Under the pieces are notes generated by a model that had not been told where the DNA came from, searched no databases, and worked only from the letters and a program-made list of their open reading frames with translations. From Patescibacteria group bacterium (GTDB taxonomy: Bacteria; Patescibacteriota; Saccharimonadia; Saccharimonadales; UBA4665), in the NCBI GenBank assembly GCA_030271625.1, contig JARXKN010000003.1:1-64000 (forward strand): 64,000 bases of DNA. The letters are read 5' to 3'. The stretch's first letter is position 1. Each line of letters opens with the position of its first letter. Positions 6,001 to 21,872 of the stretch are shown here, piece by piece. A program made the translations under genes and the position numbers.

Positions 6001-9000
6001 TGGTGCCGTTAGTGGCGCCACGACTATCGCTGCTAGCGGTGCCATCTCGGCTGCAACCGCTGGCAACACCATCAATGGTTTGATTATTAACGGCGGCGCT
6101 TTAAGCGGTATTACTGGCTATAGCCAGACTAGCGGCAACTTTAGCCAAACCGGTGCTGGCAGCTTCGGCACCGGCACTGGCGCTGTTAGCTTAAACGGCG
6201 CTACGACGGTGTCTGGCAGCAACACGCTGACTGTCGGCACCGGTGCGACCTTACTCGGTGGCAGCTTAACCGTTACCGGCGCCAGCACCTTAAATGGCTC
6301 AGTTAGTATTTCCGGCACCAACACCTTAACTACCGGCACTGGCACCGTTACGCTCGGCTCATTAGGGGCTGGCTTAGTCCAAAGTAGTGCCGGCGGCGTT
6401 CTGACCAGCGGCGCCGTTGATCGCAACACGGCTACTTACTTGAGCGGTACGCTTAACGTCGGCAACGGCGGTACCGGCGCTACTAGCTTCACCACTAACG
6501 GTATCGTGTACGGTAACGGCAGCAGCCCGCTCCAGAGTACCGCCGCCGCTGCTAACAGCATCTTAGCCACCAATGGCACTAACGTTCCAGCTTTAACGCA
6601 GACCTTACCAACCGCCGTCCAAACTAACATCACTGCTACGGGTGCTTTAGCAACTGGTTCAATTGCTTCCGGCTTTGGCACCATTAGCACCACTAACACC
6701 ATTGCTACCACTGGCGCAGTGCAGGGCGGTACGCTCAGTATTGCTAGCGCTGCCTTTGCTGTTAACGGCACCGGTGCCATAAGCGCTGCTACCGGTATTA
6801 CTACTAGCGGCAACTTCTTACAGAGCGGTGCCGGTACCTTCGGCACCGGCACTGGCGCCGTCAGCTTGAACGGTGCCACCACTATCAGCAGCACGCTAGC
6901 TGTCCAGGGCGCTGGTGGCATTACTGTCGGCGTTGCTGGTACGACTGCCGGCGTGATCAGCTTTGCTAATGCCACCAACACTAACAAGACACTCTTGAAC
7001 TCATTGGCACCAACCGGTACCGGCGATGCAACCGTCAATATACCAGCTGTAGCCGGCGGTACCACCGACCAATTCTGTTTGAAATTTACTGGTAACTGTT
7101 CCGGTAGTGGTACTGGTGTCACCGTCGTTGGCGGTACCCAGAACTACCTCGCTAAATTCAATAACGCCGGCGGTACGCAGATTGGCAGCGCCAGCTTGTA
7201 CGACGACGGCAACTTTGTTGGCCTCGGCACTACTAGCAACAATGGCTTACTGAGCATTGTTAGCGCCAGCGCTACTCAAGCCGCTATCTTTGCTCAGGGT
7301 GCCGCTAGCGCCACCACACCGGTAGCTATCATTAAGGGCGGCGCTACTCCTGGCGCTGGCGGTGACTTGCTACAACTCCAGACTTCTGCTGGTACAGTCG
7401 TTGCCAAAATTGATGCTGCCGGTAACCTGAGTGCCGTCAACGGTAACTTCACCGGCAACATTGCCCAAACTGGTACTGGCACGCTCAGCACCGGTACTGG
7501 TGCCATCAGTCTTAACGGCGCGACTAGCGTCACTGGCACTAACACCTTTACCGTCGGTACCGGCGCCACAGCCCTCAACGGTACGCTAGCTGTCACTGGC
7601 GCTACAACGCTAACTGGTACGCTAACTGCCAACGGTGCTAGCAGCTTTAACGCTAACGTAGCAGTTAGCGGCACTAACACCCTAACTGTTGGCACCGGCG
7701 CCACTACCCTTGGCGGGACCTTAGCCGTCACCGGCGCCAGCACTTTTACCGGCGCTACAACCCACAACGGCGCTGTCAGTATTACTGGCACCAACACACT
7801 TACGACCGGCACCGGTACTGTTACGCTCGGTTCACTCGGCACCGGTATAGTCCAAAGCAGCGCAACGGGCGTACTTACCAGCGGAGCAGTTGATCGTAAC
7901 AGCGCAACGTACTTAACCGGTACCTTAAATGTCAGCAATGGCGGTACTGGCGCTACAACCTTAGCTGCTAACGGTATCCTCTACGGCAACGGTACGAGTG
8001 CCATTCAAGCCACCAGCGCCGCCGCTAACAGCATCTTGGCCACCAATGGCTCCAACGTTCCAAGCTTAACCCAAACGCTGCCTACGGCTGTTCAAGGCAA
8101 CATCACTAGCACCGGTATTCTGACGGCCGGCTCGATAGCCAGCGGCTTTGGTACCATCAGCACCGCCAACAACATCACCACTACTGCTACCGTTCAAGGT
8201 GGATCAGTAACTGCCACGGGCGTCCTTAGCGGCAACAGCCTCAGCATTAATGCCGGGGCCTTTGCGGTCAGCAGTGCTGGCGCGATTACGGCTGCCACCG
8301 GCATCACCACTACCGGTAACTTCTCGCAAACTGGTGCTGGCACCTTCGGTACCGGCACGGGCGCCGTCAGCCTCAACGGCGCTACCAGCGTTACGGGTAC
8401 CAACACCTTTGCTGTCGGTACTGGCACTGCTACCTTCGGCGGCGCCGTCAATGTCCAGAGTGCCGCTGGCATCACCCTCGGCAACGCCGGCACCGTAAAC
8501 GGTAAGCTCAGCTTTGCCAACAGCACTAACAGCAACCTTGGCGTCCTGCAGATTGCTGCCCCAACCGGTACCGGTACTGCCACTTACACGATTCCAAGTG
8601 TGGCCGGCGGTACTAACGAAGAAATCTGTCTGAAGTTCGCCGGCAACTGTGCTGGTAGCTTGAGCGCTAGTGGCGGTACCGCCAACTACGTCGCCCGCTT
8701 TACTGGCCCAAGCACGCTTGGTATCGGTGTACTGTACGACAATGGTACCTTTGCGGGCGTCAACACGGCTACCGATAACGGCCAGCTTAGCATCGTCAGC
8801 CGCGGCGCTGCCGAAGCGGCTATCTTTGCCCAAGCCGCTGCCAGTGCAACTACCCCAGTGGCTGTCATTAAGGGTGGCGCTACTCCTGGCGCTGGTGGTG
8901 ACTTATTACAACTTCAGACTGCAGCTGGTACGGTTGTGGCTAAGGTAGATGCCAGCGGTAACTTAACCGCCGTTGATGGTAACTTCACCGGCAACATCAC

Positions 9001-11960
9001 GCAAACTGGTACTGGCACGCTCAGCACCGGCACCGGCGCCGTCAGCCTCAACGGCGCTACCAGCGTTACCGGCACTAACACCCTCACCGTCGGTACGGGC
9101 GCAACTACTTTGGGTGGCACGCTAACTGTTGCCGGTCTCAGCACTTTCAACGGCAATGTCAGCATCACTGGCACTAAGACGCTCACCACCGCTACTGGCG
9201 CCGTCACCTTTGGTTCGCTCGGCGCTGGCATCGTCCAATCAAACGCCAGCGGCTTACTCAGCAGCAGCGCCGTTGACCGCAACAGCAGCACTTTACTAGC
9301 CAATAACTTAACAGTTGCTAATGGTGGTACAGGCGTCAGCACATTGGCCGCCAACGGCATCCTGTATGGCAATGGTGCCGGTAACGTCTTGGCCACCGCA
9401 TCGGCCGCCAACAGCATCTTAGCTACCAATGGCTCGAGCGTTCCTAGCTTGACCCAAACATTGCCAGCGGTTGTTCAAGGTAACATCACCAGCACTGGTG
9501 CTTTAACGGCTGGCTCAATTGCCAGCGGCTTCGGCATTATCAGCACGGCTAACAATATTACGACGACGACTACCATCCAAGGTGGTACCGTCACCTCAAC
9601 CGGCGCCCTCAATGGTGCTAGCCTCAGTATCAACAGCGGTGCCTTTGCCGTTAATAATGCTGGCGCGATTACGGCGGCCACCGGCATTACCACCACTGGC
9701 AACGTCTCGCAAACTGGTACTGGCACCTTCGGCACCGGCACCGGCGCCATTAGTCTCAATGGCCCAACCAGCGTCACTACCAGCAATACCTTCAATGTTG
9801 GTACCGGTACCTCGACCTTTGGCGGCGCGGTAAACGTCCAGAGCGCAGCTGGTCTGACGCTTGGAACGGCTAGTTCTGTGAACGGTAAGCTTAGCTTTGC
9901 TAATGCCACCAACGCTAACCTCGGTGTTATCCAAGTTGGTGCTCCAAGTGGTGCTGGCAACGCTACCTATACTGTCCCAAGCATCGCTGGCGGTACCAGC
10001 GATACCGTTTGTTTACTAACGCTGGCTAACTGTGCCGGTAGCGTTACGGCTACAGGCGGCACCAACAACTATGTTGCTAAGTTCACCGGCGCCAGCACCC
10101 TCGGCATTGGTCAATTATTCGATAACGGTAGCTTCGTAGGCGTCAATACTACTACTAACAATGGTCAATTAAGCATCTTAAGCAGCGGCGCTACCCAGGC
10201 TGCTATCTTTGCTCAAGGCGCTGCCAGTGCAACTACCCCAGTCGCTATCATTAAGGGCGGCGCTTCACCGGGCGTTGGCGGCGACTTGCTACAACTTCAG
10301 ACTTCAGCTGGTACGGTTGTTGCCAAAATTGATGCTGCCGGTAATCTTAGCGCCGTAAACGCCACCTTAACGGGTAGCTTTACGCAGACTGGCGCTGGCA
10401 CCTTCAGCACCGGCACCGGCGCTATCAGCTTAAACGGCGCCACCACTATCGGCAGCACTAATACCCTAACGGTCGGTACCGGTGCCGTAACCTTTGGCTC
10501 CCTCGGGGCTGGGCTGGTCCAGAGCAACGCCAGCGGCTTACTCAGCAGCAGCGCCGTTGATCGCAACAGCGCCACCTACTTTACGGGCACACTCAACGTT
10601 GGCAACGGCGGCACTGGCGCAACAACCCTGGCTTCTAACGGTATCCTCTACGGCAATGGTACCGGCGCTATCCAGGCCACCACCGCTTTGGCCGGTGCAG
10701 TCTTGGTCACTGATGCCGCTACTAGCATTCCAAGCCTAAGCCAGACCTTACCAACCGCCGTTCAAGGTAATATCACCCGTACTGGTGCGCTGGCTGCTGG
10801 CTCAATTGCCGCCGGCTTTGGCACTATTAGCACCAGTAACAACATCACCACTAGCACGACCATCCAAGGTGGTACCGTCACCTCAACCGGAGCTTTGAAC
10901 GGCGCTAGTCTCAGCATTAACAGCGGCGCCTTTGCCGTTAACAATGCTGGCGCGATTACGGCGGCCACTGGCATTACCACCACCGGTAACGTCTCGCAAA
11001 CCGGCACCGGCAGCTTCAGTACCGGTACTGGCGCCGTCAGCTTGAACGGTGCAACTACGGTCAGTACCACCTTAGCGGTGCAGGGCGCAGGTGGCTTAAC
11101 CCTCGGCGTGGCTGGTAGTACAACTGGAACGCTCAACTTTGCTAACACCACTAACACCAACCTCGGCAGCCTGCAGATTACCGCCCCAACTGGCGTTGGA
11201 ACCGGCACCTACACCATTCCAAGCATCGCCGGTGGCACCAGCGACATTATCTGTGTTAAGAACATTAATAACTGTGGTGGTGTAACTGCTTCTGGCGGCA
11301 CTGCTAACTACGTAGCCAAGTTCACTGGTGCTGGCACCCTCGGTATTGGTCAATTATTCGATAACGGTAGCTTCGTAGGCGTCAACACTACCACCAACAA
11401 TGGCCAATTGAGCATCCTGAGCAGTGGCGCGACAGCAGCGGCCATCTTCGCCCAAGGTGCCGCCAACGCTACCACACCAGTGGCCGTCATTAAGGGTGGT
11501 GCTACGCCTGGCGCCGGTGGCGATTTGGTTCAGTTCCAAACCTCTGCCGGTACCCCAGTTGCCAAGATTGATGCCAGTGGTAACATCCTTGGCGCCAGCT
11601 TTGACACGGTGAGTGCCGGCGCTTTAAACATCGGCGCTACTAACGCTACTAGCATTGCTCTCAAGCAAAACACTGGTGTAACTGGCAGCTTAACCGTCAG
11701 TAATGGCCTAACTGTTACGGCTGGCGCCAGCAGCTTCGGCGGTGCGGTCAGCATCTCTAACGGCAACAACTTAACCGTCGGTACTGGTGCCACTTCACTT
11801 GGCGGCACCCTGGCCGTTACGGGCACTAGTACCTTTACCGGGCTCGCAACCTTTAACGGAGGCGTGGCCGTTGGTAACAACAGTAGCATTACCCAAACTG
11901 GCTCTGGCAGCTTCAGCACCGGCACCGGCGCTATCAGCTTAAACGGCGCCACCACTATCG
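2..11960 (+). repeat. Short ~30-residue (about 90 bp) imperfect tandem units in the giant gene
   Basis: Units of the type TGTNTLTVGTGATTLGGTLAV, usually followed by TGATTLNGN, alternate with units of the type NFSQTGAGSFSTGTGAVSLN. They occur dozens of times, most densely from the left edge to about nt 3400, then interspersed between larger modules to about nt 11960. The alternating small/polar and beta-branched residues suggest stacked short beta strands (a beta-solenoid or fibre shaft). That fold is an inference from the pattern. Confidence 0.85.
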
Positions 11961-14900
11961 GCAGTACCCTTAACGTTAGTGGCGGCAGCGTAACGGTTGG
12001 TTCGACCGGTCAGTTCACCATCGCTACCAACGGTAATGTTGCTACCAGCGGCTCCGTCCTGGGCGCTAGCTTCGACGTTAACGCCAGCGGCGCACTCAAC
12101 ATCGGCACCACTAACGCTACCAGCATTGCGCTCAAGCAAAACACTAGCATCACCGGCGTCTTAACCATCTCGACCTTAAGCGCCACTAGTGGTACAACCC
12201 AGGTCTGTCAGAACGCCAGTAACCAGCTCAGCACCTGTACTAATACCTACGAAGCGACGACTGGTACCGACTTCATCCGCAACCAAACCGCTCAGCAGAC
12301 TAGTGGTAACTTCAACATCCAAGCCCGTGCTGCCACCGTGGCCGCTACTATCCAGGGTGCCGCTGGCCAAGATATCGCTGATTTTGTCAGCAGTGGTAAC
12401 GCTACGGTCGCCAAGATTGATGCTAGCGGCAACCTAACTGCCGTACAGGGAACCTTTAGCGGCGCCATTAATGCTAACGGTGGCGTTTTCTTAGGCGCTA
12501 ACCAGAACCTATCATTAGCAACTGGTACCGGCACGATTACTCAAGGTTACAGCAACACTACTGGCACGGCCGAGACTAAGACCGTCGCTAACACCGCAAC
12601 AAGTGGTGCTAGTGTCGTTAATGGCATCGCCATTAATATGACCGGCGCTGCTAACGGCACCGGTACTAACACCAATACGGCTATCAATCTAGGCAATGTG
12701 GCGGCTGCTGCTGGTAACGCCTTCTACGCCTTTAAGGTAGGAACTGGCTACGCAGATGTCCTGAACTACAACGGTACCAGTATCATTAATGGCTCCGGAC
12801 AGCTTAATTTAGCCCAAGTTACTGGCACACTGGGTGTCGGCAATGGTGGTACTGGCACCACCAGCCTAACCAGTAACGGCATCTTGTTTGGCAACGGTAG
12901 CGGTGCTATTCAGGCAACTAGCGCCGCCGCTAATAGCATCTTAGCTACCAACGGTTCCAACGTTCCAGCCCTTACCCAGTTCCTACCAGCTGCAGTGCAG
13001 GGTAACATCACCAGCACCGGTGCCTTAACCGCTGGTTCGATTACCAGCTTCGGCACTATTAGCACCGCCAACACTATCACTACCAGCGCCACGCTCTCGG
13101 GTGGTGTGGTTAACGCTACCACCGGCTTTACTATCGGTGGTGCTGCTCCAGCCGGCCACTTCCTGCGTGGCAACGGTACCAACTATGTCGACAGCACGAT
13201 TGCTGGCACCGACATTTCTGGTACCTTGTTTACGGTCGCAGCTTCAGCTGGTACGGCTCAAAACGTCAGTGGTGGTGGTACCGTTACCTTCCTCAAGGGT
13301 GCCAGTAACAACCTAACAACTACCGCTAGTGCCACTAACAACATCACTATCGATATCGTTAACAACCCAAGCTTCAGCGGTGCCGTAACTAGTACTGCTG
13401 GCACAACTGGCTTGGTGGCTAGTGGCGCGCCAGTCGCCGGCAGTGGCATTACCTCGTTATTGCAACTTGGTGGCGCCATTGCAGCTGGTAATGTCAGCGC
13501 CAACGGTGGTACCTACTTTGGTATCAATGAGCCAGCTTCTGGCGCCGGTTCAGCCGCTGACTTTATTAACTTCCAGAACAACGGCACGACTAAGCTGCAG
13601 GTTAGCAGCGCCGGCTTGCTAAATGCCGCTGGCGGCTTTGCAGTCGGCGCCAACGCTGGCAGTACAGTTAGCTGTGCTGCTAACTTTGCCGTCACCGCCA
13701 GCAACTACACCGGCGGCATCCTGACCGGTGGTAGCTGCCAACAAACTGCTGATACGTTGCAAACGGCCTACAACAACTCTGGTGCTACCAACCCTCAGAT
13801 TCTGCTTACCAGCGCTAACGGTGGCATCAAGATCCAAGACGGTACCACCCCAGTTAGCGGCAACTTAATGCAGATTTCTAACAACGGTGGCACCACAAAC
13901 TACTTTGGCGTTAGCAGCAGCGCCGTTACAATCATTGACGCCTTAAATGTCACCGGTGGCTACACCCAAACTGGTACGGCTGCCAACACCTTCCTCGGCG
14001 CCACCACCTTCAGCGCTACTGGTACGGCCGTGGCAGTCACCAACGGTAGCTTGGCAGTTGGTACTACCGGCCAGTTCAACGTCAACAGCTCCGGTAATAC
14101 CACCACCAGCGGTACCTTTGCGCAGACCTACAGCACCGCTGCCACTGGCGCTACCAACGTCAACAGTGTTAGTGCTACCACTACCAACACAACGGCTACC
14201 GCTGCTACCGTTAACGCTCGCAGCATCAGCCTTACCGGTACGACTAACACGCTCAGTACCAACGTTCTGAACGGCATAAACCTCGCTAACGTCACGCCAC
14301 TTACCGGTAACCAGTTCAACGGCATCGTTATTGGTTCTGGTTACGACAACCCAATTTCCATTGCCGGTAACTCTATCTTCTCCGCTACCGGCATCATCCA
14401 AAATGGCGCCTTCAGCACCGGTACCACCTACAGCAACATCACTAAGATTGGTACCGTCACAGCCGGTGTTTGGAACGCCACGACCGTTACTGCTGGTTAC
14501 GGCGGAACCGGTACTAGTCAGATTCCGACCAACGGCCAACTACTGATTGGTAACGGCACCGGTTACAACGCTGCCACGCTTAGCACCACGGGTATTACCC
14601 AAACTGCCGGCGCCGGTACGCTTAGCCTCGCGGTCGCCTATGGTTCTGGCGCCAACACTGCTGCTCAGGGTAACACCAGCATTACTTGTACCGCCGGTAC
14701 TGGTAACTTAACTGGTGGTGGTAACACCATTACCGCCGGCGCCGGTGGCACCTGTGGAACCATCAACACCGTTGCAAACCCATCGTTCAACAGCGTGACT
14801 ATTGCCAACACCACCAACACCAACACTGCCTTGCTAGTCCAAAATGCCGGTGGCTTTGCCTCACTTATCTTCGATACCATCAGCGGTGGCTTAAAGGTTT

Positions 14901-16618
14901 GTGACAGCACCGTTAACGGCACTTCCACTGCCTGTTCGAGCTATGCATCGGTTACGTACGCTAACGGTGCCGCCGTCTTTGCCGCTTCAAGTGGTATTAC
15001 TCAGCTGGGTGCTACTTCCGGTAACGTTTCCGTACCATTAACCGGTATTTCCGATAAGTTCCTCTTCACCAAGACCTACACCGCCGGCAGCGCCTACAGC
15101 ACTAACGACTTTGCGGTTCAGCGTATCGTAACTGGTGCAGCCAATGCGCTAACCGGTAACGTCTTCTCAGTTGAAAACCGATCAACCGGTACTAATGATG
15201 GCAGCACCGTGTTGTACTTAAACCAAAATAACGCCAGTGCTTTATCGACTGGCTTTGTCATCCAGGCGCAATCAGCTGCTGCCACCAACTTGTTAACCCT
15301 CGATAACGCCGGTAACCTCAACATCAAAACCGGCTACCAGCTCAACGGTACCCCTGGTATTACGTCGACCTGTACCGGCGGTCAGTCCCTCACCAACTCC
15401 ACTGTTGCCGGCGGTATCGTCACCGGTGGCACTTGTGCTGCCGGAGCTGGTCAGACGCTACAAGGTGTTTATGACACCTCTAGCAGCCCAGCTACAATCG
15501 TTACCACCTCGGCTACCAAGGGTATGTTACTAAAGGCTGGAGCAACATTCGATAACACCACTTTGTTCCAAGTTCAGAACTCTGCCGGTGTGGCCATCCT
15601 AACTACCGACTCAACCAATAAAGCCGTTCAGGTGGGCTCGGTTCTGGGTGATGCGACACAAGTTAACCTAACTCTCGACTCGTACAACACCTATGCTGAT
15701 GCAAACTCTACCAACGCTGCTTGTAACACCACCGCTAACCCGAGTGGCGCAATGTACTACAACACCGTCAGTAACTCAATTCGTGCCTGTATTGGTAGCA
15801 CTTTTGAAGACCTAGTTTCAACAGCTGGCCTTGGCATCATGTTGTTTGGAGTGGTACCAGATAGCGGCTCCAACGGCGGTGACTTACCAGCCCTAGGAAC
15901 AGCTGGTGTAACTGGCCCATGTAAAGTTTCTTGGACTACGGCAACAACTGTTACAGTTGCGCCATGTACTGCTTACTCAGCCGGCCGTAAAGTAGTGGTA
16001 CCTTCAACGGTAGTTACCATTAACACCTTGACTACCACAAACATCTGGGCCCACATCTGCCTCAGCAGTACGACTAACCAACCAGTACTTTCAGCCGGTG
16101 CCACTACGGAAATTGCGAACTTAGCAACTGTTTCGTTCGTCAGTGCTAACAACCCAATCGTCTGTCTAGCAGACATTAAGGGATCAGCCACAACCGCCAA
16201 TAACATTGCCCAGATTTATGATGTTCGTACCTTTACTAACAGCCAGAAAGAATTTGTTACCCTCAGTACTGCAGCCAGCTTAGGTCAGGCTGTCATAGCC
16301 AGCACCAGCAATGCAGTTCCGGCTACCGCTGCCGGCAGCGCCACCGTTATGGGTGTGGTCGTAGCTTCAACTGGTGCTACCTCTAGCACCGCGCCAAACG
16401 GCATCATTGTCACCTCCGGGCCAGCCTATGCCAAAGCCGTCAGTACTGCCGCAGCTGGTAACTTTGTAATCACCAGCACCACCGCCGGCTATGTAAACGC
16501 GGCCACAGCCACCGGTGCTTTCGGCACTATGGGAACGGCACGCACGACCTTTACAACTGGCTGTACCTCTGCCGCAACTTGCCTTGGTTCGGTATACTTT
16601 AATGAGAGTATTCGATAA
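2..16618 (+). CDS. Giant Gly/Thr/Ser/Asn-rich repeat surface protein, 5' end cut by window edge
   Basis: The reading frame is open from the left edge to TAA at 16616-16618, giving at least 5538 residues. The true start lies outside; the TTG at 80 is only an internal Leu codon. The protein is almost entirely Gly, Thr, Ser, Asn, Ala, Val and Leu, with very few charged or aromatic residues. It is built from a short unit of about 30 residues (TGTNTLTVGTGATTLGGTL type), a unit of the type NFSQTGAGSFSTGTGAVSLN, and larger modules described separately. From about nt 15650 (residue ~5217) a non-repetitive C-terminal region follows with several Cys and a GAMYYNTVSNSIRACIG segment, which recalls C-terminal modules of phage tail-fibre-like and CPR surface proteins. 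No LPXTG signal or C-terminal membrane anchor is visible. A role as a surface fibre or adhesin is inference. The next gene starts inside the stop codon. Confidence 0.9.
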   Translation, partial: NGGITDTGNFAQTGTGSFSTGTGAVSLNGNTTVTGANTLTVGTGSTTLGGTLAVTGTSSFNGNVNINGTNNLTVTSGATTLGGTLAVTGAATLSGGLSVTGASSFSGNVSLNGLSSFTTGTGTVTLGSLGDGIVQSSATGVLSSGTIDRNSTYLSGTTSVSNGGTGATTFTSGGILYGNGTSPILATASAANSVLITSSGSVPSLSQTLPVAVQGNITSTGTLTAGSIASGFGTISTTNNITTTATIQGGIVTATGALNGNSLSINAGAFAVSSTGAITAATGITTTGNFSQTGAGNFSTGTGAVSLNGATNINGATNVTGTNTFSVGTGATTLGGTLTTTGLTTLNGGLTETGAANINTTGTANTAIGNTTGTFSLQSNGLNVTTAGALSGITGYAQASGNFLQSGAGTFGTGAGAVSLNGATSVTGSNSFSVGTGATTLGGTLAVTGTSTYTGAATFNGGITDTGNFSQTGAGSFSTGSGAISLNGATAVTGANTFTVGSGATSLGGTLAVTGSSTLNGNTSITGTNTLTVGTGATNLGGTLSVTGATTLSSTLAVTGATTLNGNTSVTGSSTLTVGTGATTLGGTLAVTGTSGFTGAATFNGGITDTGNFAQTGTGTFSTGTGAVSLNGATSITGTNTLTVGTGATTLGGTLTTAGLTTLNGGATVSGATSITGATTINTSGTASTTIGNGSAAFSVASTGLNVSSAGVLSGITGYTQNSGNFLQSGAGSFGTGTGAVSLNGNTNVTGSNTFTVGTGATTLGGTLTEAGLATLNGGLTVTGATAINTGGTANTAIGNNTGTFSLQSSAFNVSSTGALSGISGYSQTSGNFSQTGVGTFSTATGNVTLNGATTVAGTNNFTVNSGATSLGGTLAVTGASTFNGNVSVAGSNTLTVGTGATNLGGTLTVAGATTLNGNTSITGTNTLTVGTGATTLGGTLAVTGTSTYTGAATFNGGITDTGNFSQTGAGNFSTGTGAVSLNGNTSITGTNTLTVGTGTTTLGGTLGVAGLTSLNGGATVTGATTITGVTNINTSGTAATTIGNGAAAFSVASTGLNISTAGALSGVTGYTQTSGNFSQTGAGSFGTGTGAVSLNGATTVSGTNTFNVGTGATTLGGTLTVANSSTFNGNLSVTGTNSLTTGTGAVTFGSLGAGIVQSNSSGLLSSSAVDRNSATLLTGTTNVANGGTGATSLTANGILYGNGTAAIQATAAAANSILATNGSNVPSLTQTLPTAVQGNITSTGILTAGSIAAGFGTIVTGNNITTTAAVQGGSVTATGALTGNTLSVGGGAFIVNATGAITAATGITTTGNLSQTGTGSFSTGTGAVSLNGATSITGTSTLTVGTGATVFGGTLQVAGAGTFTSTLAVQGAGGLTLGVAGTTDGLLKFANSTNTNLAIINSIAPTGTGNATYSLPTLPAGTTAYLCLDTGNCAGAGGAITGTGTTNYIARFNSNSTLNASTLLYDDTTFIGVNTTASNATLSVLGAVATKPAFLAQATASATTPVAVIKGGATPGAGGDLLQLQNSAGTVLAKVDAVGNLSAVNAAFSGTLGVTGAATFGGAATFNNTVAVTGTNTLTVGTGATTLGGTLGVAGLSTLSGGLTETGAVSITGGTNINTTGTASTSIGNTSGAFTLASTGLNVTPAGALSGITTISASGAITAATTGNTINGLIINGGALSGITGYNQTSGNFAQGGTGTFSTATGAVALNGATTISSTLNVQGAGGLTLGVAGTTAGALKFANTTNTNVTLLQALAPTGTGTATLNLPSVAGGSTDEICLKFSGNCAGSGGGVTTTGGSQNYVAKFTNAGGTQIGSASIYDDGTFVGVNTLTNSGAFSVQGISATQPAIFAQAVANATTPVAVIKGGATPGTGGDLLQLQNNAGTVLAKIDASGNITTVNDTVTGNFNQTGSGTFTTGTGAVSLNGNTTISGTNTLTVGTGATTLGGTLGVAGLTSLNGGATITGTTAINTTGTANTSIGNATGSFSVASSGLNISTAGAVSGATTIAASGAISAATAGNTINGLIINGGALSGITGYSQTSGNFSQTGAGSFGTGTGAVSLNGATTVSGSNTLTVGTGATLLGGSLTVTGASTLNGSVSISGTNTLTTGTGTVTLGSLGAGLVQSSAGGVLTSGAVDRNTATYLSGTLNVGNGGTGATSFTTNGIVYGNGSSPLQSTAAAANSILATNGTNVPALTQTLPTAVQTNITATGALATGSIASGFGTISTTNTIATTGAVQGGTLSIASAAFAVNGTGAISAATGITTSGNFLQSGAGTFGTGTGAVSLNGATTISSTLAVQGAGGITVGVAGTTAGVISFANATNTNKTLLNSLAPTGTGDATVNIPAVAGGTTDQFCLKFTGNCSGSGTGVTVVGGTQNYLAKFNNAGGTQIGSASLYDDGNFVGLGTTSNNGLLSIVSASATQAAIFAQGAASATTPVAIIKGGATPGAGGDLLQLQTSAGTVVAKIDAAGNLSAVNGNFTGNIAQTGTGTLSTGTGAISLNGATSVTGTNTFTVGTGATALNGTLAVTGATTLTGTLTANGASSFNANVAVSGTNTLTVGTGATTLGGTLAVTGASTFTGATTHNGAVSITGTNTLTTGTGTVTLGSLGTGIVQSSATGVLTSGAVDRNSATYLTGTLNVSNGGTGATTLAANGILYGNGTSAIQATSAAANSILATNGSNVPSLTQTLPTAVQGNITSTGILTAGSIASGFGTISTANNITTTATVQGGSVTATGVLSGNSLSINAGAFAVSSAGAITAATGITTTGNFSQTGAGTFGTGTGAVSLNGATSVTGTNTFAVGTGTATFGGAVNVQSAAGITLGNAGTVNGKLSFANSTNSNLGVLQIAAPTGTGTATYTIPSVAGGTNEEICLKFAGNCAGSLSASGGTANYVARFTGPSTLGIGVLYDNGTFAGVNTATDNGQLSIVSRGAAEAAIFAQAAASATTPVAVIKGGATPGAGGDLLQLQTAAGTVVAKVDASGNLTAVDGNFTGNITQTGTGTLSTGTGAVSLNGATSVTGTNTLTVGTGATTLGGTLTVAGLSTFNGNVSITGTKTLTTATGAVTFGSLGAGIVQSNASGLLSSSAVDRNSSTLLANNLTVANGGTGVSTLAANGILYGNGAGNVLATASAANSILATNGSSVPSLTQTLPAVVQGNITSTGALTAGSIASGFGIISTANNITTTTTIQGGTVTSTGALNGASLSINSGAFAVNNAGAITAATGITTTGNVSQTGTGTFGTGTGAISLNGPTSVTTSNTFNVGTGTSTFGGAVNVQSAAGLTLGTASSVNGKLSFANATNANLGVIQVGAPSGAGNATYTVPSIAGGTSDTVCLLTLANCAGSVTATGGTNNYVAKFTGASTLGIGQLFDNGSFVGVNTTTNNGQLSILSSGATQAAIFAQGAASATTPVAIIKGGASPGVGGDLLQLQTSAGTVVAKIDAAGNLSAVNATLTGSFTQTGAGTFSTGTGAISLNGATTIGSTNTLTVGTGAVTFGSLGAGLVQSNASGLLSSSAVDRNSATYFTGTLNVGNGGTGATTLASNGILYGNGTGAIQATTALAGAVLVTDAATSIPSLSQTLPTAVQGNITRTGALAAGSIAAGFGTISTSNNITTSTTIQGGTVTSTGALNGASLSINSGAFAVNNAGAITAATGITTTGNVSQTGTGSFSTGTGAVSLNGATTVSTTLAVQGAGGLTLGVAGSTTGTLNFANTTNTNLGSLQITAPTGVGTGTYTIPSIAGGTSDIICVKNINNCGGVTASGGTANYVAKFTGAGTLGIGQLFDNGSFVGVNTTTNNGQLSILSSGATAAAIFAQGAANATTPVAVIKGGATPGAGGDLVQFQTSAGTPVAKIDASGNILGASFDTVSAGALNIGATNATSIALKQNTGVTGSLTVSNGLTVTAGASSFGGAVSISNGNNLTVGTGATSLGGTLAVTGTSTFTGLATFNGGVAVGNNSSITQTGSGSFSTGTGAISLNGATTIGSTLNVSGGSVTVGSTGQFTIATNGNVATSGSVLGASFDVNASGALNIGTTNATSIALKQNTSITGVLTISTLSATSGTTQVCQNASNQLSTCTNTYEATTGTDFIRNQTAQQTSGNFNIQARAATVAATIQGAAGQDIADFVSSGNATVAKIDASGNLTAVQGTFSGAINANGGVFLGANQNLSLATGTGTITQGYSNTTGTAETKTVANTATSGASVVNGIAINMTGAANGTGTNTNTAINLGNVAAAAGNAFYAFKVGTGYADVLNYNGTSIINGSGQLNLAQVTGTLGVGNGGTGTTSLTSNGILFGNGSGAIQATSAAANSILATNGSNVPALTQFLPAAVQGNITSTGALTAGSITSFGTISTANTITTSATLSGGVVNATTGFTIGGAAPAGHFLRGNGTNYVDSTIAGTDISGTLFTVAASAGTAQNVSGGGTVTFLKGASNNLTTTASATNNITIDIVNNPSFSGAVTSTAGTTGLVASGAPVAGSGITSLLQLGGAIAAGNVSANGGTYFGINEPASGAGSAADFINFQNNGTTKLQVSSAGLLNAAGGFAVGANAGSTVSCAANFAVTASNYTGGILTGGSCQQTADTLQTAYNNSGATNPQILLTSANGGIKIQDGTTPVSGNLMQISNNGGTTNYFGVSSSAVTIIDALNVTGGYTQTGTAANTFLGATTFSATGTAVAVTNGSLAVGTTGQFNVNSSGNTTTSGTFAQTYSTAATGATNVNSVSATTTNTTATAATVNARSISLTGTTNTLSTNVLNGINLANVTPLTGNQFNGIVIGSGYDNPISIAGNSIFSATGIIQNGAFSTGTTYSNITKIGTVTAGVWNATTVTAGYGGTGTSQIPTNGQLLIGNGTGYNAATLSTTGITQTAGAGTLSLAVAYGSGANTAAQGNTSITCTAGTGNLTGGGNTITAGAGGTCGTINTVANPSFNSVTIANTTNTNTALLVQNAGGFASLIFDTISGGLKVCDSTVNGTSTACSSYASVTYANGAAVFAASSGITQLGATSGNVSVPLTGISDKFLFTKTYTAGSAYSTNDFAVQRIVTGAANALTGNVFSVENRSTGTNDGSTVLYLNQNNASALSTGFVIQAQSAAATNLLTLDNAGNLNIKTGYQLNGTPGITSTCTGGQSLTNSTVAGGIVTGGTCAAGAGQTLQGVYDTSSSPATIVTTSATKGMLLKAGATFDNTTLFQVQNSAGVAILTTDSTNKAVQVGSVLGDATQVNLTLDSYNTYADANSTNAACNTTANPSGAMYYNTVSNSIRACIGSTFEDLVSTAGLGIMLFGVVPDSGSNGGDLPALGTAGVTGPCKVSWTTATTVTVAPCTAYSAGRKVVVPSTVVTINTLTTTNIWAHICLSSTTNQPVLSAGATTEIANLATVSFVSANNPIVCLADIKGSATTANNIAQIYDVRTFTNSQKEFVTLSTAASLGQAVIASTSNAVPATAAGSATVMGVVVASTGATSSTAPNGIIVTSGPAYAKAVSTAAAGNFVITSTTAGYVNAATATGAFGTMGTARTTFTTGCTSAATCLGSVYFNESIR
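368..13120 (+). repeat. Seven copies of a ~125-residue VDRN/NGGTG/YGN module in the giant gene
   Basis: Each copy reads roughly GSLGAGIVQSS, then SSSAVDRNSATYL, then LNVxNGGTGATTL, NGILYGNGTSAIQAT, AAANSILATNGSNVPSLTQ, TLPTAVQGNITSTGALTAGS and IASGFGTIST. The NGGTG codons start at 485, 3557, 6464, 7937, 9320, 10604 and 12842. The last copy is a variant that lacks the VDRN segment. NGGTG and YGNG signatures are familiar from tail-fibre-like repeat proteins, so this may be an intertwined or trimeric fibre element (inference). Confidence 0.85.
4099..11600 (+). repeat. Six copies of a ~180-residue cysteine-pair module in the giant gene
   Basis: Copies lie at about 4099-4640, 5149-5710, 6883-7450, 8440-8985, 9827-10370 and 11062-11600. 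Order within each: VQGAGGLTLGVAGTT, KFANxTNTN, APTGTGTATYTIPS, a Cys pair (CLKFAGNCAG type, 6-7 residues apart), NYVAKFT, YDDGTFVGVNT, AIFAQ, TPVAVIKGGATPGAGGDLLQ and AKIDASGNL. The conserved Cys pair and the few Lys/Asp residues fall at fixed positions, so these look like folded domains set into the fibre-like repeats. A disulfide is likely outside the cell (inference). A further, more widely spaced Cys pair occurs near nt 12205-12240. Confidence 0.85.
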
Positions 16619-18837
16619 TGAAAATTAGAATGAAAACCAAAAAGTTAAATCTTATCCGCTCCGGAGCAGCTGCAACCTTGTTTGTATTGGCTGTAAGTTT
16701 AGCGTCGACAATTATTGGTCCCGGACAAGCCCAAGCAGCGATTGCTTTGGTAGGGAGCAATACCGCCACTACCACAACCGGTACTACCGCCACCACCTTG
16801 GCACTGACAAAACCAGCGGGGGTTATTAGTGGTACGGTTATGGTCGTGCATTTAACATACAATGCTGGCGCGAATAAGGGCGTCACTGTTACGAAACCAA
16901 CCGGCTGGTTACAGGCTGGAGGGTATGTCAGTAATGGTAACTGGTGGCAGAGTGTTTTCTATAAAGTTGCCGGTGGTAGTGAACCAACTTCGTATACCTT
17001 TACTATTTCTCGAGCCAGTAATATCGTGGGGGGTATTCTCGCGTATTCGGGAGTGGACAATACGGCACCGATAGATGATGTTATTGGGTATACCAGTGGC
17101 GCAACCAACACTACTACCCACTCCGCTCCTTCAGCTTCAGCCAGTACTAATGGCGATATGATGGTTAACTTTTGGGGCTATTTAACTGCCACCACCGCGA
17201 CCAGCTACGATGCCTCGCTAACGGCCAATTATTCAGTTTCGACTACTAATGTTGGTGATGCATCGGCCGGGAAGGTACTTAATAACGCCGGTGTAACCGG
17301 AACGTTTAACTCCTTCACTGCTGGTAATACCAAGTGGTTGGCGCATACCGTGCTTTTGTTACCGTCATCGCGACCGGCCGGTATTAGTTTTGTGTCGTCG
17401 GCCACGACTTTCTGTGCTTCTTGTTCTAACTTATCACTGACTTCACCGGCCGGCTGGAGTGCAGGGGACTTCTTTATAGTTAGTGTCCTGTGGAATAGCG
17501 CCGCCACTTTAACCGCTCCCAACTCAAGCTGGGTGCAGATTGGCTCGACGCAAGTCGATGGCGCATACAGCCAGGCCGTGTTCTACCATGTGGCAGATAT
17601 CAGTGATCCGTCATCTTACTCGTGGCTCTTTAGTACCGCCACCAACGTTATAATTGCCGGCACTGACTATGCCGGTGTTGATGTGGCGGCCCCGGTCGAT
17701 GACACTCAAACGGCAAACGACGCCTCGGGCTCGAATCACATTGCGCCCTCAGTAACCAGTACGCACTCCAATGACTACTACGTCGGGATTTGGGGTTTTG
17801 AAGCCAACTTTATCGGCAGTACTACCTCCTTCTCAAGTACCCTAAACAGTGCCTGGAACCTGGTAGATGGTACCACTCTGGGTAGCGACAGCATGTATGA
17901 ACCGCTTGGTAACGCCGGTGCTAGCGGTACACGCTTTACGACTTCAGTAAACCCTAGCAATAACGCCCAGTTAAGAAACACTCGATCGCTCATGCGCTCA
18001 ATAGCGTTAAAGCCATTTATCCCGATTCCAAAATTGTACATACCCGTCGATCAGTCAACCGGCGCGCCGCTGTATACTGTTTTTCAAGTTAAGGATTATT
18101 TAATTAATCCAGGGCCAGAAAAGTACAAGATTGAACTGTGTTCCAACAGTACCTGCACGACGATTCTCAGTACCTACGACCAAACCTCGTCTCAAACTGG
18201 CTGGAGTGGACAGGATGTGTCCGGCGCCACCGCCTATAACGGCACCAGCGCTCTCAGTACATCAACCATGGCCACGTACACCTTACAGACGCCGCTAACC
18301 GCTAATACCCAGTATTGGTGGCGGGCCTATGCCTACGATGTAAATGGCGGTTACTTCACGCCCCCATCTAACATTAGCTCCTTTAAGACCAGCGTCTATC
18401 CAGCCGCGCCAACTCTATTTCAGCCCGGTAATGGCGCCTCTAATGTGCCACTTAATCCAGAATTTCGCTTAGCCGCAACTGATGCAGATGGCGATGATCT
18501 TCAGTATAAAATCCAGTTATGTAGTACGGCTACCTGTTCAACAGTTCTGTACACCTTTGATCAGACGTCCTCGCAAGCTGGCTGGAGCGGGCAGGATAAC
18601 GCAACCTTTACAGCCTATGGGTCAGATCCTACCTTAGCTTCCAATTCGACGCCGGCCTTCTATGACTTTACATCGGCGAACTTAGCGCAGAATACCCAGT
18701 ATTGGTGGCGAGCCTATGCCATCGATCCAGCCGGTACCAATACGTTCAGTGCTGCCTCTGCAATTAGTAGCTTCACGACTAACCTTACGGAAACCCGTAT
18801 CATAGAAGGTCGGATACTGGGCAGCAAGATTCTGTAG
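16618..18837 (+). CDS. Secreted multidomain protein, translationally coupled to the giant gene
   Basis: This 739-residue protein starts at ATG 16618, which overlaps the preceding TAA (TAATG); a second in-frame ATG lies at 16630. Residues 1-41 form a signal peptide (basic start, hydrophobic core, AQAA near the cleavage site). Residues ~42-250 and ~253-470 are two diverged copies of one domain: WWQSVFYKVAGGSEPTSYTF in the first matches YSQAVFYHVADISDPSSYSW in the second, and both continue into GVD-x-x-APxDD. Then come two copies of a fibronectin-III-like domain, each with a Cys-x4-Cys pair, WSGQD and NTQYWWRAYA. The C-terminus has no sorting signal. It is probably an extracellular partner or anchor of the giant protein (inference from coupling). 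Confidence 0.85.
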   Translation: MKIRMKTKKLNLIRSGAAATLFVLAVSLASTIIGPGQAQAAIALVGSNTATTTTGTTATTLALTKPAGVISGTVMVVHLTYNAGANKGVTVTKPTGWLQAGGYVSNGNWWQSVFYKVAGGSEPTSYTFTISRASNIVGGILAYSGVDNTAPIDDVIGYTSGATNTTTHSAPSASASTNGDMMVNFWGYLTATTATSYDASLTANYSVSTTNVGDASAGKVLNNAGVTGTFNSFTAGNTKWLAHTVLLLPSSRPAGISFVSSATTFCASCSNLSLTSPAGWSAGDFFIVSVLWNSAATLTAPNSSWVQIGSTQVDGAYSQAVFYHVADISDPSSYSWLFSTATNVIIAGTDYAGVDVAAPVDDTQTANDASGSNHIAPSVTSTHSNDYYVGIWGFEANFIGSTTSFSSTLNSAWNLVDGTTLGSDSMYEPLGNAGASGTRFTTSVNPSNNAQLRNTRSLMRSIALKPFIPIPKLYIPVDQSTGAPLYTVFQVKDYLINPGPEKYKIELCSNSTCTTILSTYDQTSSQTGWSGQDVSGATAYNGTSALSTSTMATYTLQTPLTANTQYWWRAYAYDVNGGYFTPPSNISSFKTSVYPAAPTLFQPGNGASNVPLNPEFRLAATDADGDDLQYKIQLCSTATCSTVLYTFDQTSSQAGWSGQDNATFTAYGSDPTLASNSTPAFYDFTSANLAQNTQYWWRAYAIDPAGTNTFSAASAISSFTTNLTETRIIEGRILGSKIL

Positions 18838-18890: not shown

Positions 18891-19595
18891 ATGAAAGAAC
18901 GCCCCCCTCGATCCGCAACAGCCGGTCCGGCCTTAGATCAACACCTTCGTCGCCCAGTAACTCCGTCAACGCTGCCGCTCCCGCCTAGACTGCCGGTCAG
19001 GCCAGTGGCTCCCACCAGTGCTGCAGCCCACCATACCGTTACGCCTAGAACTGCAAAGCCAAAACGGTCATTTACTGTCAGCCGGAAAGTATTAGTCATC
19101 GCCCTATCTACCGCACTACTGCTGGCGGCTGCAAGCGGCGTCGTGAAGCTTAGCCATGGGGCAGGGCAGGTCTTGCCCCCGGCTATCGCTAGTAAGGTCA
19201 ATTTTGCTGTCTTTTATCCTGCTAACGACAAGCTCGTTGCCGTCGAGCGCAAATCAATATCGTTTAATGACCAAGCCGGCGTCCTTAGCTATACTGGTAG
19301 GCTGCTTGGCGGGGCTGATCTATACATTAATCAACAAGCTACACCCGAGAGCTTTGTGGACATCCCGCAAGCCTACGACAAACTTATCGCCAGCCTTTTG
19401 CCGTATGGTAATTTCGATACGGTTAACGGCCGGGTGTCATTAACCAAACCAAAGGAATTACAGGGCAACCAATCGGCCGTCATGAATGCCAAAGGCACCC
19501 TGATGTTCGTTCGTGCTAGCAGTAATATTACCGATTCACAGTGGCGACAGGTATTTAACAGCCTAAAATTGATAGAAAGTTCAGCTGCCAAATAA
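18891..19595 (+). CDS. Hypothetical membrane-anchored protein with Pro-rich N-terminus
   Basis: 234 residues. Residues 1-~60 are Pro/Arg/Thr-rich and probably cytoplasmic. A basic stretch (KPKRSFTVSRK) precedes one transmembrane helix at about 68-88. The remaining ~145 residues would lie outside the cell and read like a small alpha/beta domain, ending in SQWRQVFNSLKLIES. I do not recognise the family. It lies downstream of the two surface-protein genes but has its own promoter. The start fits the leaderless promoter pattern of the window. A role in surface assembly is possible but unsupported. Confidence 0.75.
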   Translation: MKERPPRSATAGPALDQHLRRPVTPSTLPLPPRLPVRPVAPTSAAAHHTVTPRTAKPKRSFTVSRKVLVIALSTALLLAAASGVVKLSHGAGQVLPPAIASKVNFAVFYPANDKLVAVERKSISFNDQAGVLSYTGRLLGGADLYINQQATPESFVDIPQAYDKLIASLLPYGNFDTVNGRVSLTKPKELQGNQSAVMNAKGTLMFVRASSNITDSQWRQVFNSLKLIESSAAK

Positions 19596-19716
19596 GCAGC
19601 CTTTTCTGACGCTTATGACTTGCTAGCTGTGACGCACGTACAGCCCCTACATGCCCCCAAACCGGGCGAAGACTAAAGTTTTAGCATAAGCGATAAGACA
19701 GGGCGTACCACAAAAT

Positions 19717-19725
19717 TTATCCACA
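19717..19725 (+). other. Perfect DnaA box (TTATCCACA)
   Basis: TTATCCACA matches the strong DnaA consensus exactly. It sits in the AT-rich 638-bp gap between the 18891 gene and parA. Only one perfect box was seen, so it does not by itself define an origin, although parA/parB are often near oriC. Confidence 0.4.
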
Positions 19726-19744
19726 GTTATCTTCTTAAAAACAC

Positions 19745-19774
19745 TTTACAAGAGGGCTTTTAGGGAACTATAAT
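19745..19774 (+). promoter_or_regulatory. Promoter of the small-peptide transcript
   Basis: TTTACA at 19745-19750, an 18-bp spacer and a perfect TATAAT at 19769-19774. Predicted transcript start is near 19781. With the terminator at 20094-20121 this defines a unit of about 340 nt. Confidence 0.65.
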
Positions 19775-19819
19775 AACCTTTAGATCTTCAAGAAAAATCA
19801 AAAAGATCAAACAAAAAAA

Positions 19820-19873
19820 ATGAACACAATAAGACCACCAGCAATCCCCAGTCTTAGCGGCGCTTCTCCGTAA
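19820..19873 (+). CDS. Possible 17-codon upstream ORF in the leader
   Basis: ATG at 19820 opens MNTIRPPAIPSLSGASP and stops at TAA 19871-19873. There is no Shine-Dalgarno sequence. The stop codon lies in the 3' arm of the inner leader hairpin, and the peptide carries a Pro-Pro pair. That arrangement would suit control of the downstream 40-codon ORF by translation, but the ORF could also be chance. Confidence 0.25.
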   Translation: MNTIRPPAIPSLSGASP

Positions 19874-19885
19874 GTGGCCCGGTGG
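19835..19885 (+). ncRNA. Nested hairpin in the A-rich leader of the 40-aa gene
   Basis: The outer stem pairs CCACC (19835-19839) with GGTGG (19881-19885). The inner stem pairs CTTAGCGG (19853-19860, one G bulged) with CCGTAAG (19868-19874) around a 7-nt loop. Flanking sequence is A-rich and unstructured. It does not match tmRNA, RNase P, SRP or 6S motifs that I could check by eye. It may be a cis-regulatory element or a small RNA domain. Confidence 0.4.
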
Positions 19886-19946
19886 CAGACAAAAACCAAA
19901 AGTAAGACAAAAACAGACATAACAAACCAACAGTAGGAAACACAAA

Positions 19947-20069
19947 ATGAAGCGCGACAAAAAGAAACAGGACGATCGACTGCTCAAGCAATTAACGCGA
20001 CAGGAAAGAAAACACCAGGAAGAGCTTAGAAAACTCATTCTGAGCGACAAAATCTTCCAGTTCGTGTAA
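19947..20069 (+). CDS. Small highly charged peptide, 40 aa
   Basis: ATG 19947 to TAA 20067-20069. The sequence begins MKRDKKKQDDRLLKQLTRQE and ends with FQFV; it is mostly Lys/Arg/Glu/Gln with regular Leu, so a single amphipathic helix or coiled coil is likely. AGGAA about 8 nt upstream serves as ribosome binding site. A strong promoter (-10 at 19769) precedes it and an intrinsic terminator follows 25 nt after the stop, so it is a self-contained unit. I know no family; the charge suggests nucleic-acid or ribosome binding (inference). Confidence 0.5.
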   Translation: MKRDKKKQDDRLLKQLTRQERKHQEELRKLILSDKIFQFV

Positions 20070-20093
20070 CGGTCTCCACAAAAACAAAAATCC

Positions 20094-20121
20094 AAACGCC
20101 AGGTCCAAACTGGCGTTTTTT
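20094..20121 (+). terminator. Rho-independent terminator of the small-peptide unit
   Basis: AAACGCCAG (20094-20102) pairs with CTGGCGTTT (20110-20118) around a 7-nt loop, followed by T to 20121. A 9-bp stem with a U-tract. Confidence 0.8.
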
Positions 20122-20190
20122 AGTAGTTACTTCAAAGTACTATACGGTTAGTATTATACGGCTACTTAACAGAGACTACCATAATCACTC

Positions 20191-20221
20191 TTGCAGCTAA
20201 CGGCCGCATAAATGCTATACT
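20191..20221 (+). promoter_or_regulatory. Promoter of parA
   Basis: TTGCAG at 20191-20196, a 19-bp spacer and TATACT at 20216-20221, preceded by TGC (extended -10). Only 12 nt separate the box from the parA ATG and there is no Shine-Dalgarno sequence. Confidence 0.6.
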
Positions 20222-20233
20222 ACTAGTAAGCTT

Positions 20234-20995
20234 ATGACACAAAAAATAATAGCGGTCGTGAATCAAAAAGGCGGGGTAGGTAAAACCACTACCACTATTA
20301 ATGTGGCCGCCCAGTTAGCTACGGCCGGTCATTCTGTCTTATTAGTCGACCTTGACCCGCAAGGCAATGCCACGAGTGGGCTGGGATTAGTAAAAGATCA
20401 ACCGGTTACCATGTACGAACTGCTTTGTCATGGTCAATCATTGGCTAGCGCCGTCCTAGAAACGAATGTCGCACAATTATACGTGCTGCCGAGTAATACG
20501 AATTTGGCGGGGGCGGAAATTGAACTGGTTGAACGGGAACGTAGAGAGTATGTGCTGCAGCAAATTTTAGCAACTGCCGCGTATGACTACATTATTATTG
20601 ATTGTCCACCGTCACTCGGCTTGCTAACTATCAATGCTTTAACAGCGGCCAGTTTGGTGCTCATGCCGGTGCAAGCCGAATACTATGCGCTCGAAGGCTT
20701 GAGTCAATTATTAAATACTGTCCAAGCAGTTAAACACAGTACCAACCAGCAGCTAGAGCTACTTGGTGTCGTCTTAACGATGTACGACAAACGCACTAGC
20801 CTCAGCGAACAAGTTCGCGAAGAGGTAAAAAAGTTCTTCGGTGAAAACCTGTTTAAGACGGTTATCCCACGTAATATCCGCTTAGCCGAAGCGCCGAGCT
20901 ACGGTAAAACTATCTTTGAACACGATAAGTGGAGCAAGGGTGCCCGCGCTTACAAGGCCTTGGCTAAAGAAATCTTGTCGCGAACTAGCTATTAA
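20234..20995 (+). CDS. parA: Chromosome partitioning ATPase ParA/Soj
   Basis: 253 residues, usual length for a chromosomal Soj-type ParA without an N-terminal HTH. The deviant Walker A KGGVGKTT is at 12-19, followed by LLVDLDPQGNAT and the Walker B-like IIIDCPPSLGLLT. It binds DNA non-specifically as an ATP dimer and moves ParB-parS complexes during chromosome segregation (family knowledge). The start follows a strong extended -10 box with a leader of only a few nt. Its partner parB lies on the opposite strand, tail to tail, with 7 bp between stops, rather than in the usual parAB operon. Confidence 0.95.
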   Translation: MTQKIIAVVNQKGGVGKTTTTINVAAQLATAGHSVLLVDLDPQGNATSGLGLVKDQPVTMYELLCHGQSLASAVLETNVAQLYVLPSNTNLAGAEIELVERERREYVLQQILATAAYDYIIIDCPPSLGLLTINALTAASLVLMPVQAEYYALEGLSQLLNTVQAVKHSTNQQLELLGVVLTMYDKRTSLSEQVREEVKKFFGENLFKTVIPRNIRLAEAPSYGKTIFEHDKWSKGARAYKALAKEILSRTSY

Positions 20996-21002
20996 TTAAT
21001 TG

Positions 21003-21872
21003 TTATTGTAACTGAGCTAGTATTTTGGACAGTTCGTCATCGTCCTTAAAAGTAATTTCTAAGCGGCCGCCTTTAGCAGTGCGTTTGACGTGAACCGGGG
21101 CACCGAGCTGTTTAGCGAGGGCTTTGGTAGCTGGGGTTTCAGTTTGGACACGCTCGCGCACGGCGGCTGGTTCCTTAACGCCAGCTTTGAGGCTGCTCAC
21201 ATAGCGTTCGGCTTGGCGAACGCTCCAACCGTGTTGCAAGATTGCCGCCAACAAGTTTGCTTGTTCTTTAGCTTGACCCTTGAGCGCTAAAATCGCTCGG
21301 GCGTGGCCTTCGCTAATTTCGTGCTTGGCCAGTGCCGCCTGCGCCGCCTCTGGTAATTGCAATAATCGAACTAAGTTATTGACGGTCGAGGGGGCTTTGC
21401 CGAGACGCTTAGCAATCGCTTCGTAGGCAATCGAGAATTGATCGTGTAGGCGGTGCAGGCTAACGGCTTGTTCGAGCGGACTTAAGTCGACGCGCTGAAC
21501 GTTTTCGACCAAGGCAATTTCTAGTTGCTGCAATTCTTTAAGACTACGGACGATGGCCGGTACGGTTTTGAGGCCGGCTAGTTTTGAGGCTCGCCAGCGT
21601 CGTTCACCAGCCACAATCTGATACTTTTTATTACCCAGAGACCGAACTACTAACGGCAGCAAAACGCCGTGCTGACGGATAGATTCACTTAGTTCAGCTA
21701 AGGCCTTTTCGTCGAAGTGACGGCGGGGCTGCTCGGCATCGGCAATCACGTCATCGACGTTCAGCTTCTGGATGCGCTCATCATCGTTTGGTAGCAGTAA
21801 GGCTTTGTCGAACGTCTGGGGGAGGAGGGTTTCGAATCCGCGGCCCAGTCCCCGTTTTGGTGTTTGGCTCAT
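21003..21872 (-). CDS. parB: Chromosome partitioning protein ParB/Spo0J
   Basis: 289 residues. The CTPase/ParB N-terminal domain includes GERRWRA at 89-95 and ENVQR at 123-127. A helix-turn-helix spans ~148-170 (AYEAIAKRLGKAPSTVNNLV), with GHARAIL at 189-195 and a short C-terminal dimerisation domain. It loads at parS and slides as a CTP clamp (family knowledge). No full parS palindrome was found by eye in the window. Convergent with parA. On the minus strand, TATAAG (21877-21882) ends 4 nt before the start codon, so the leader is very short or the promoter is further upstream. Confidence 0.95.
   Translation of the reverse strand: MSQTPKRGLGRGFETLLPQTFDKALLLPNDDERIQKLNVDDVIADAEQPRRHFDEKALAELSESIRQHGVLLPLVVRSLGNKKYQIVAGERRWRASKLAGLKTVPAIVRSLKELQQLEIALVENVQRVDLSPLEQAVSLHRLHDQFSIAYEAIAKRLGKAPSTVNNLVRLLQLPEAAQAALAKHEISEGHARAILALKGQAKEQANLLAAILQHGWSVRQAERYVSSLKAGVKEPAAVRERVQTETPATKALAKQLGAPVHVKRTAKGGRLEITFKDDDELSKILAQLQ

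Follow-up and report, generated by a model that had tools for sequence, protein, structure and literature searches.

Upstream of the partition gene parA, the analysed DNA encodes a conserved basic protein of 40 residues which represents a new family, to date from one family of Saccharibacteria. With some reserve, we lean towards viewing the whole as a monocistronic gene for this protein in the rplU-to-parA region, furnished with a translation-sensing leader and linked to ParA by its position. The window, meaning the whole stretch of 64,000 nt that was analysed, is part of contig C18 of a 1.15 Mb genome (G000) assembled in 23 contigs; metagenome-assembled Candidatus Saccharibacteria are among the relatives compared. 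The unit carries a promoter of a type common to several relatives as well as a terminator, and is composed as follows.

19717-19725, plus strand: DnaA-box sequence, TTATCCACA, located 19 nt before the -35 hexamer
19745-19774, plus strand: promoter TTTACA-N18-TATAAT from the promoter scan (-35 at 19745-19750, -10 at 19769-19774)
19783-19788 and 19803-19808, plus strand: 5' stem GATCTT/AAGATC with an A-rich stretch after it
19820-19873, plus strand: upstream ORF of 17 codons, MNTIRPPAIPSLSGASP, its stop codon UAA (19871-19873) lying inside the hairpin
19851-19890, plus strand: nested leader hairpin of -13.4 kcal/mol, containing the UAA of the upstream ORF
19947-20069, plus strand: ORF of 40 codons for the conserved basic, mostly helical protein MKRDKKKQDDRLLKQLTRQERKHQEELRKLILSDKIFQFV, with GTAGGAA upstream
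20094-20122, plus strand: terminator hairpin after the 40-codon ORF (stem 20094-20118, then TTTAG)

A sequence-only reading of this DNA had recognised the TATAAT promoter, the 17-codon ORF ending within the hairpin, the 40-codon ORF with its ribosome binding site and the terminator, all of which are borne out. The nested hairpin which it described in the A-rich leader also exists, but occupies 19851-19890 instead of the proposed 19835-19885.

The protein family and its distribution

The 40-codon ORF is shown to be protein-coding and under strong purifying selection: between the window and G003, dN is 0.06 and dS 0.96 (dN/dS ~0.06). The protein is rich in Lys, Arg and Glu, and Met1, Asp10, Arg11, Leu13, Lys14, Arg21, Gln24, Arg28 and Ile31 are invariant in its alignment A1. 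The predicted structure, of moderate confidence (mean pLDDT 74.5, pTM 0.44), contains helices at residues 11-14, 18-33 and 35-39. The best Pfam match of the window protein, PF02915, has an E-value of 0.022 and 15.6 bits, below the cut-off of 22.8; NCBIfam gave no match, and the best matches in PHROGs and the PDB had E-values of 0.11 and 1.5, respectively.

The protein is present in five of the six genomes of the window's genus and in 24 of the 93 genomes of its family (its own included), a profile search likewise giving 24 of 93. In a sample of the phylum, 4 of 379 genomes contained a match; three of them belong to the window's family, and the fourth, outside it, matched with an E-value of 5.6e-4 across 23 residues. 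G001 contains two copies of the gene ~4 kb apart. Scoring of 64 parA-side stretches with an unfiltered profile gave 14 strong matches (58-80 bits) and values below 9 bits for the rest, a gap which implies that the gene directly upstream of parA is either present or absent and has not gradually diverged. On a ParA tree of 70 tips with many unresolved forks, the small gene underwent at least nine presence/absence changes.

Promoter, terminator and genomic surroundings

The promoter agrees with 11 of the 12 consensus letters and has an 18-nt spacer. The scan of 19500-20400 found one promoter and shuffled sequences yield 1.2, so that the match in the window on its own is no evidence. Its type, TTTACA-N17/18-TAnnnT, precedes the 40-residue protein gene in 8 of 25 loci, 143-212 nt upstream (genomes G000, G003, G001, G005, G004, G079, G030 and G083), and one further promoter, TTGACA-18-TATTAT, lies upstream of the gene at L010. 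The window contains two matches to the DnaA-box pattern TTWTCCACA where 1.0 is expected; upstream of the unit, G003 and G004 have a perfect box as well, and the other five loci with the same promoter type have none. The 3' terminator hairpin appeared in the pattern scan for the minus strand alone; in plus-strand orientation, its T run is partly inside the stem.

Long ORFs resembling those of surface proteins flank the unit on one side and parA on the other.

80-16618, 16618-18837 and 18891-19595: long ORFs, considered surface-type from their appearance
20213-20221, plus strand: TGCTATACT, a candidate extended -10 type promoter for parA, found by eye
20234-20995, plus strand: parA, partition ATPase and downstream neighbour of the unit (AAA_31, E 4.8e-63)
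21003-21872: parB, convergent with parA

The ORF at 80-16618 is giant and repetitive, comprising more than 5500 residues, and may extend past the start of the window. The GC profile of the window was uninformative. In the window, the terminator lies between the 40-residue protein gene and parA, which has the promoter-like TGCTATACT of its own. This element is absent from the list of the promoter scan (19500-20400), which requires two hexamers; a similar TGGTATACT precedes parA in several relatives. Also before parA, TTAGTATTATACGGCTA at 20148-20164 is a possible operator, and like sequences were noticed by eye in several of 14 relatives.

The small gene and parA are co-located in 20 of 21 loci (the window and L027-L046, flanks up to 10 kb), several of which have other genes, in several cases long surface-type ORFs, in between. 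At L040 parA is nearby on the opposite strand, and at L039 (G023) it is on a different contig from the small gene. This linkage is the location of the gene and says nothing of what the gene does; judged from position alone, the protein might act together with ParA/ParB or contribute to the same growth-linked process.

The leader in the window and in relatives

By eye, G003, G030 and G083 have short 5' stems comparable to that of the window leader. The upstream ORF lacks a Shine-Dalgarno sequence, and an A-rich sequence precedes its ATG. The hairpin containing its stop codon has no U tract and is not a terminator. In G003 the counterpart of the upstream ORF, MNTIRTHPTTTPCGAFP, has the same length of 17 codons and shares the start, the stop and few residues; dN and dS between the two are 0.32 and 1.33, and past codon 5 there are 10 nonsynonymous and 7 synonymous differences. 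Beyond G003, neither the upstream peptide nor the big hairpin is conserved, and even there conservation is partial. The sequence-only reading was to fall if neither peptide nor stems were conserved in relatives; it withstands this check, as conservation at the protein level is seen for the 40 codons. The big hairpin is kept only partly and in G003 only.

An ATG ORF of 8-20 codons occurs in six of the eight leaders with this promoter type (shuffles 2.0, P 0.0055), Pro-Pro is found in the upstream ORFs of three of the eight (shuffles 0.08) and a terminal Pro in those of two (shuffles 0.11); these measures, including the codon range, were picked post hoc, and G000 and G003 are closely related. 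The leaders of L012 and L020 are the two without such an ORF, that of L020 having been counted ~24 nt short; by eye, the missing part adds just an ATG-stop.

Terminators were searched for within 450 nt upstream of the small gene at 25 loci and matched at eight; those at L006 and L012 are located before the respective promoters, and none was found in the window, G003, G001 and G005. An ATG ORF enters the intrinsic terminator in all five leaders counted, ending within it in L015 and L017, ending at its foot in L026 and crossing it in L013 and L022. Shuffling of the stretch upstream of each terminator, with segment limits chosen by the analyst, gave fractions of 0.32 (L013), 0.46 (L017), 0.71 (L022), 0.16 (L026) and 0.21 (L015) with a product of 0.0034, which is suggestive, not conclusive. 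L019 was excluded as ambiguous: with 260 or 320 nt included, an ATG ORF crosses its terminator-like match (shuffle fractions of 0.36 and 0.65, respectively), and none does so with 230 nt. In these relatives, the covarying element RNA1 after rplU, or another leader, precedes the ORF and terminator. Different arrangements were also seen. The 40-residue protein gene directly follows a surface-type gene at L007 and L023 (by eye), a short ORF MKYTYKPLPNRPPP lies between the two at L008, and at L016, L024 and L025 a strong Shine-Dalgarno sequence and then a minimal ORF, ATG-stop or ATG-ACA-stop, lie between the surface-type gene and the small gene (by eye).

The RNA1 element

Upstream of parA, many relatives contain RNA1, which reads TTCAAAAA...CTTGattaC...GATACT and then AUAGGrUUGG...AACCAACAAAnAUUGGUUAAAA (for example L171:2951-3022). 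Its covariance model matched 43 of the 93 family genomes at E<=0.01 and 35 of 93 at E<=1e-4; in a sample of the order there were 47 of 294, six of them outside the family and near the threshold (E 0.0018-0.0072). In an alignment of 34 distinct sequences, pairing extends to 94.3% of cells compared to 88.7% in shuffles, double changes occur in 5 of 11 pairs, and slid controls do not exceed 54.5%, figures which are flattered by the fitting of the alignment to the structure. The end of rplU is located ~245-640 nt upstream of RNA1 at 34 of 35 loci; at the 35th, L149, just 32 nt of the available sequence precede RNA1.

The window's genome has good RNA1 matches on contigs C20 and C19, each between rplU and a long surface-type ORF, a third match near the threshold and none in the window unit. 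The window leader as a divergent RNA1 was considered and rejected (best 9.8 bits, E 0.53). On C19 and C20 (L172 and L171), two ileS-rplU-RNA1-long ORF segments with differing rplU sequences were observed, reflecting either duplication or contamination in the assembly. The small gene of G003 is on the same contig as RNA1, 31 kb away, so that the window unit is probably what is found at the parA side of an insertion of this kind. The sequence-only reading had matched the transcript to no known RNA class, and Rfam gave no match in the window; stretches of 14 relatives produced three matches at E<=1, each of them in L077 and under the gathering score. Having no library match, RNA1 and the protein family look undescribed, and nothing on either was found in the open-access literature as judged on titles and abstract beginnings.

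Within the first 120 nt of the RNA1-led long surface-type ORFs, a terminator-like hairpin at ~nt 36-70 (near codons 12-24) was found at all six loci examined (L171, L172, L174, L175, L176 and L177; shuffle fractions 0.07, 0.25, 0.10, 0.14, 0.09 and 0.09) by criteria partly looser than those of the 450-nt scan. L171 and L174 are close kin with a common stem, and the other stems differ in part. By eye, ACCAATAC is present just upstream of the start codon of each of the six long ORFs.

At -234 to -241 from RNA1, 24 of 29 loci have a perfect DnaA box TGTGGATAA, followed by GTnGT...CAAC blocks with steady spacing. A replication origin in the rplU-RNA1 interval, as suggested by the box, is disfavoured on dnaA distance and GC skew. 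In the two single-contig family members G087 and G081, dnaA and parA are ~209 kb and ~194 kb apart, assuming closed circular contigs, and the skew, readable in 19 of 20 sampled stretches per genome, has its negative-to-positive turn close to dnaA and the contig ends rather than at parA. These two genomes have no RNA1 match and no gene for the 40-residue protein.

Mechanistic interpretation

In our favoured scenario, ribosomes would start at the A-rich site of the upstream ORF, which is devoid of a Shine-Dalgarno sequence, and run into the leader hairpin, thereby altering the yield of the downstream protein. In some relatives the hairpin met by the upstream ORF is an intrinsic terminator, and translation of the ORF would lead to read-through by RNA polymerase, i.e. 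to attenuation; in the window's genus, where the gene has its own promoter and lacks the terminator, a leftover effect on mRNA stability or translation may persist. It is the arrangement in relatives which suggests that the leader senses translation, and we read it as descending from, or resembling, a translation-dependent attenuator, of which the window retains only the upstream ORF and the hairpin. The attenuation-type leader put forward in the sequence-only reading gains partial support from the upstream ORFs in six of eight leaders and from the entry of such ORFs into the terminator in relatives, but finds none in the window copy, where the hairpin lacks a U tract, pairing that hides the start is confined to one of eight leaders, and peptide and hairpin are poorly conserved. 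Because no terminator follows the hairpin, we do not file the window copy as an attenuator; its leader may be a weakened attenuator or exert no regulation at all.

Alternatively, the unit might be a plain small-protein gene, in which hairpins stabilise the mRNA, the upstream ORF is fortuitous and its UAA belongs to a recurring CCGUAA loop. We grant this explanation appreciable weight, short of adopting it. It agrees with the variation of hairpin sequence and upstream peptide across the genus, with start-site pairing in just one of eight leaders, and with the recurrence of CCGUAA in the small-gene leaders of G000, G003 and G072 as well as in the RNA1 leaders of the first two. However, upstream ORFs are commoner than in shuffles and enter the terminator in each of the five counted terminator-bearing leaders.

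A more specific device would be translational attenuation, in which GCGCUUC, at the end of the upstream ORF, base-pairs with GAAGCGC at the start of the small gene and a translating ribosome frees this start. The window leader has several of the expected properties: the two strands pair with a probability of 0.97-1.0, pairing between start region and leader is 0.62 against 0.24 in shuffles (fraction at least as high 0.035), and masking of the upstream site opens the ribosome binding site from 0.69 to 0.83 and codons 2-4 from 0.28 to 0.45. Yet the AUG itself stays unopened upon masking (0.66 to 0.63), and the other seven leaders are at shuffle level (0.29, 0.11, 0.00, 0.01, 0.33, 0.07 and 0.00), which makes this mechanism improbable. 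Start-codon sequestration as a conserved switch was rejected, the pairing being above shuffles in one of the eight leaders, that of G000. The further suggestion of the sequence-only reading, that the entire 340-nt transcript is a noncoding RNA, agrees with the folding of 19780-20124, which beats shuffles (z -3.1), but conflicts with the retention of the ORF as protein in 24 genomes and with its low dN/dS towards G003; this protein-level conservation rules the alternative out and leaves practically no likelihood for it.

Extending the scenario of a translation-sensing leader, RNA1 together with an ORF over a terminator might form a new class of translation-dependent attenuators controlling the 40-residue protein and the giant surface proteins, with the window unit as a derived form. 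We consider this extension rather doubtful; if it holds, these proteins would be made only under brisk translation. A review (PMC11665869) considers the regulation of translation a likely key to how Patescibacteria change between the free and the host-attached state, by mechanisms that it calls unknown. If surface-type and parA-linked genes do carry a translation-sensing leader, it would provide a concrete candidate for the regulation of this lifestyle switch.

Comparison with known systems

Type I toxin-antitoxin systems are characterized by a small hydrophobic toxin and the promoter of an antisense RNA; here, the peptide is rich in Lys, Arg and Glu, and the scan of 19500-20400 shows just one promoter-like site, which belongs to the plus strand. 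In translational attenuation of the erm type, the start of the downstream gene is sequestered by pairing with the upstream ORF. The window copy is similar in that a strand of its upstream ORF pairs with the region around the start of the 40-codon ORF; it differs in that the other seven leaders do not share the pairing.

Leader-peptide transcription attenuators, such as ilvB-II of Corynebacterium with its upstream ORF (PMC10272879) and those of the trp type, have a short ORF before or overlapping an intrinsic terminator ahead of the regulated gene, as found in some relatives. Overlap of the leader ORF with the terminator was found in all five leaders counted, L019 being ambiguous; in contrast, no terminator was found in the 450 nt before the 40-codon ORF of the window copy. 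A further system for comparison is UpsM (PMC5089854), a 5'-UTR-derived sRNA of Rhodobacteraceae whose terminator precedes the dcw cluster. RNA1 differs from UpsM in its position after rplU and before parA, the 40-residue protein gene or surface-type ORFs; the RNA1 leaders and UpsM are alike in being long, family-restricted leaders with a terminator near cell-cycle genes. By analogy to UpsM, RNA1 by itself could yield a short RNA.
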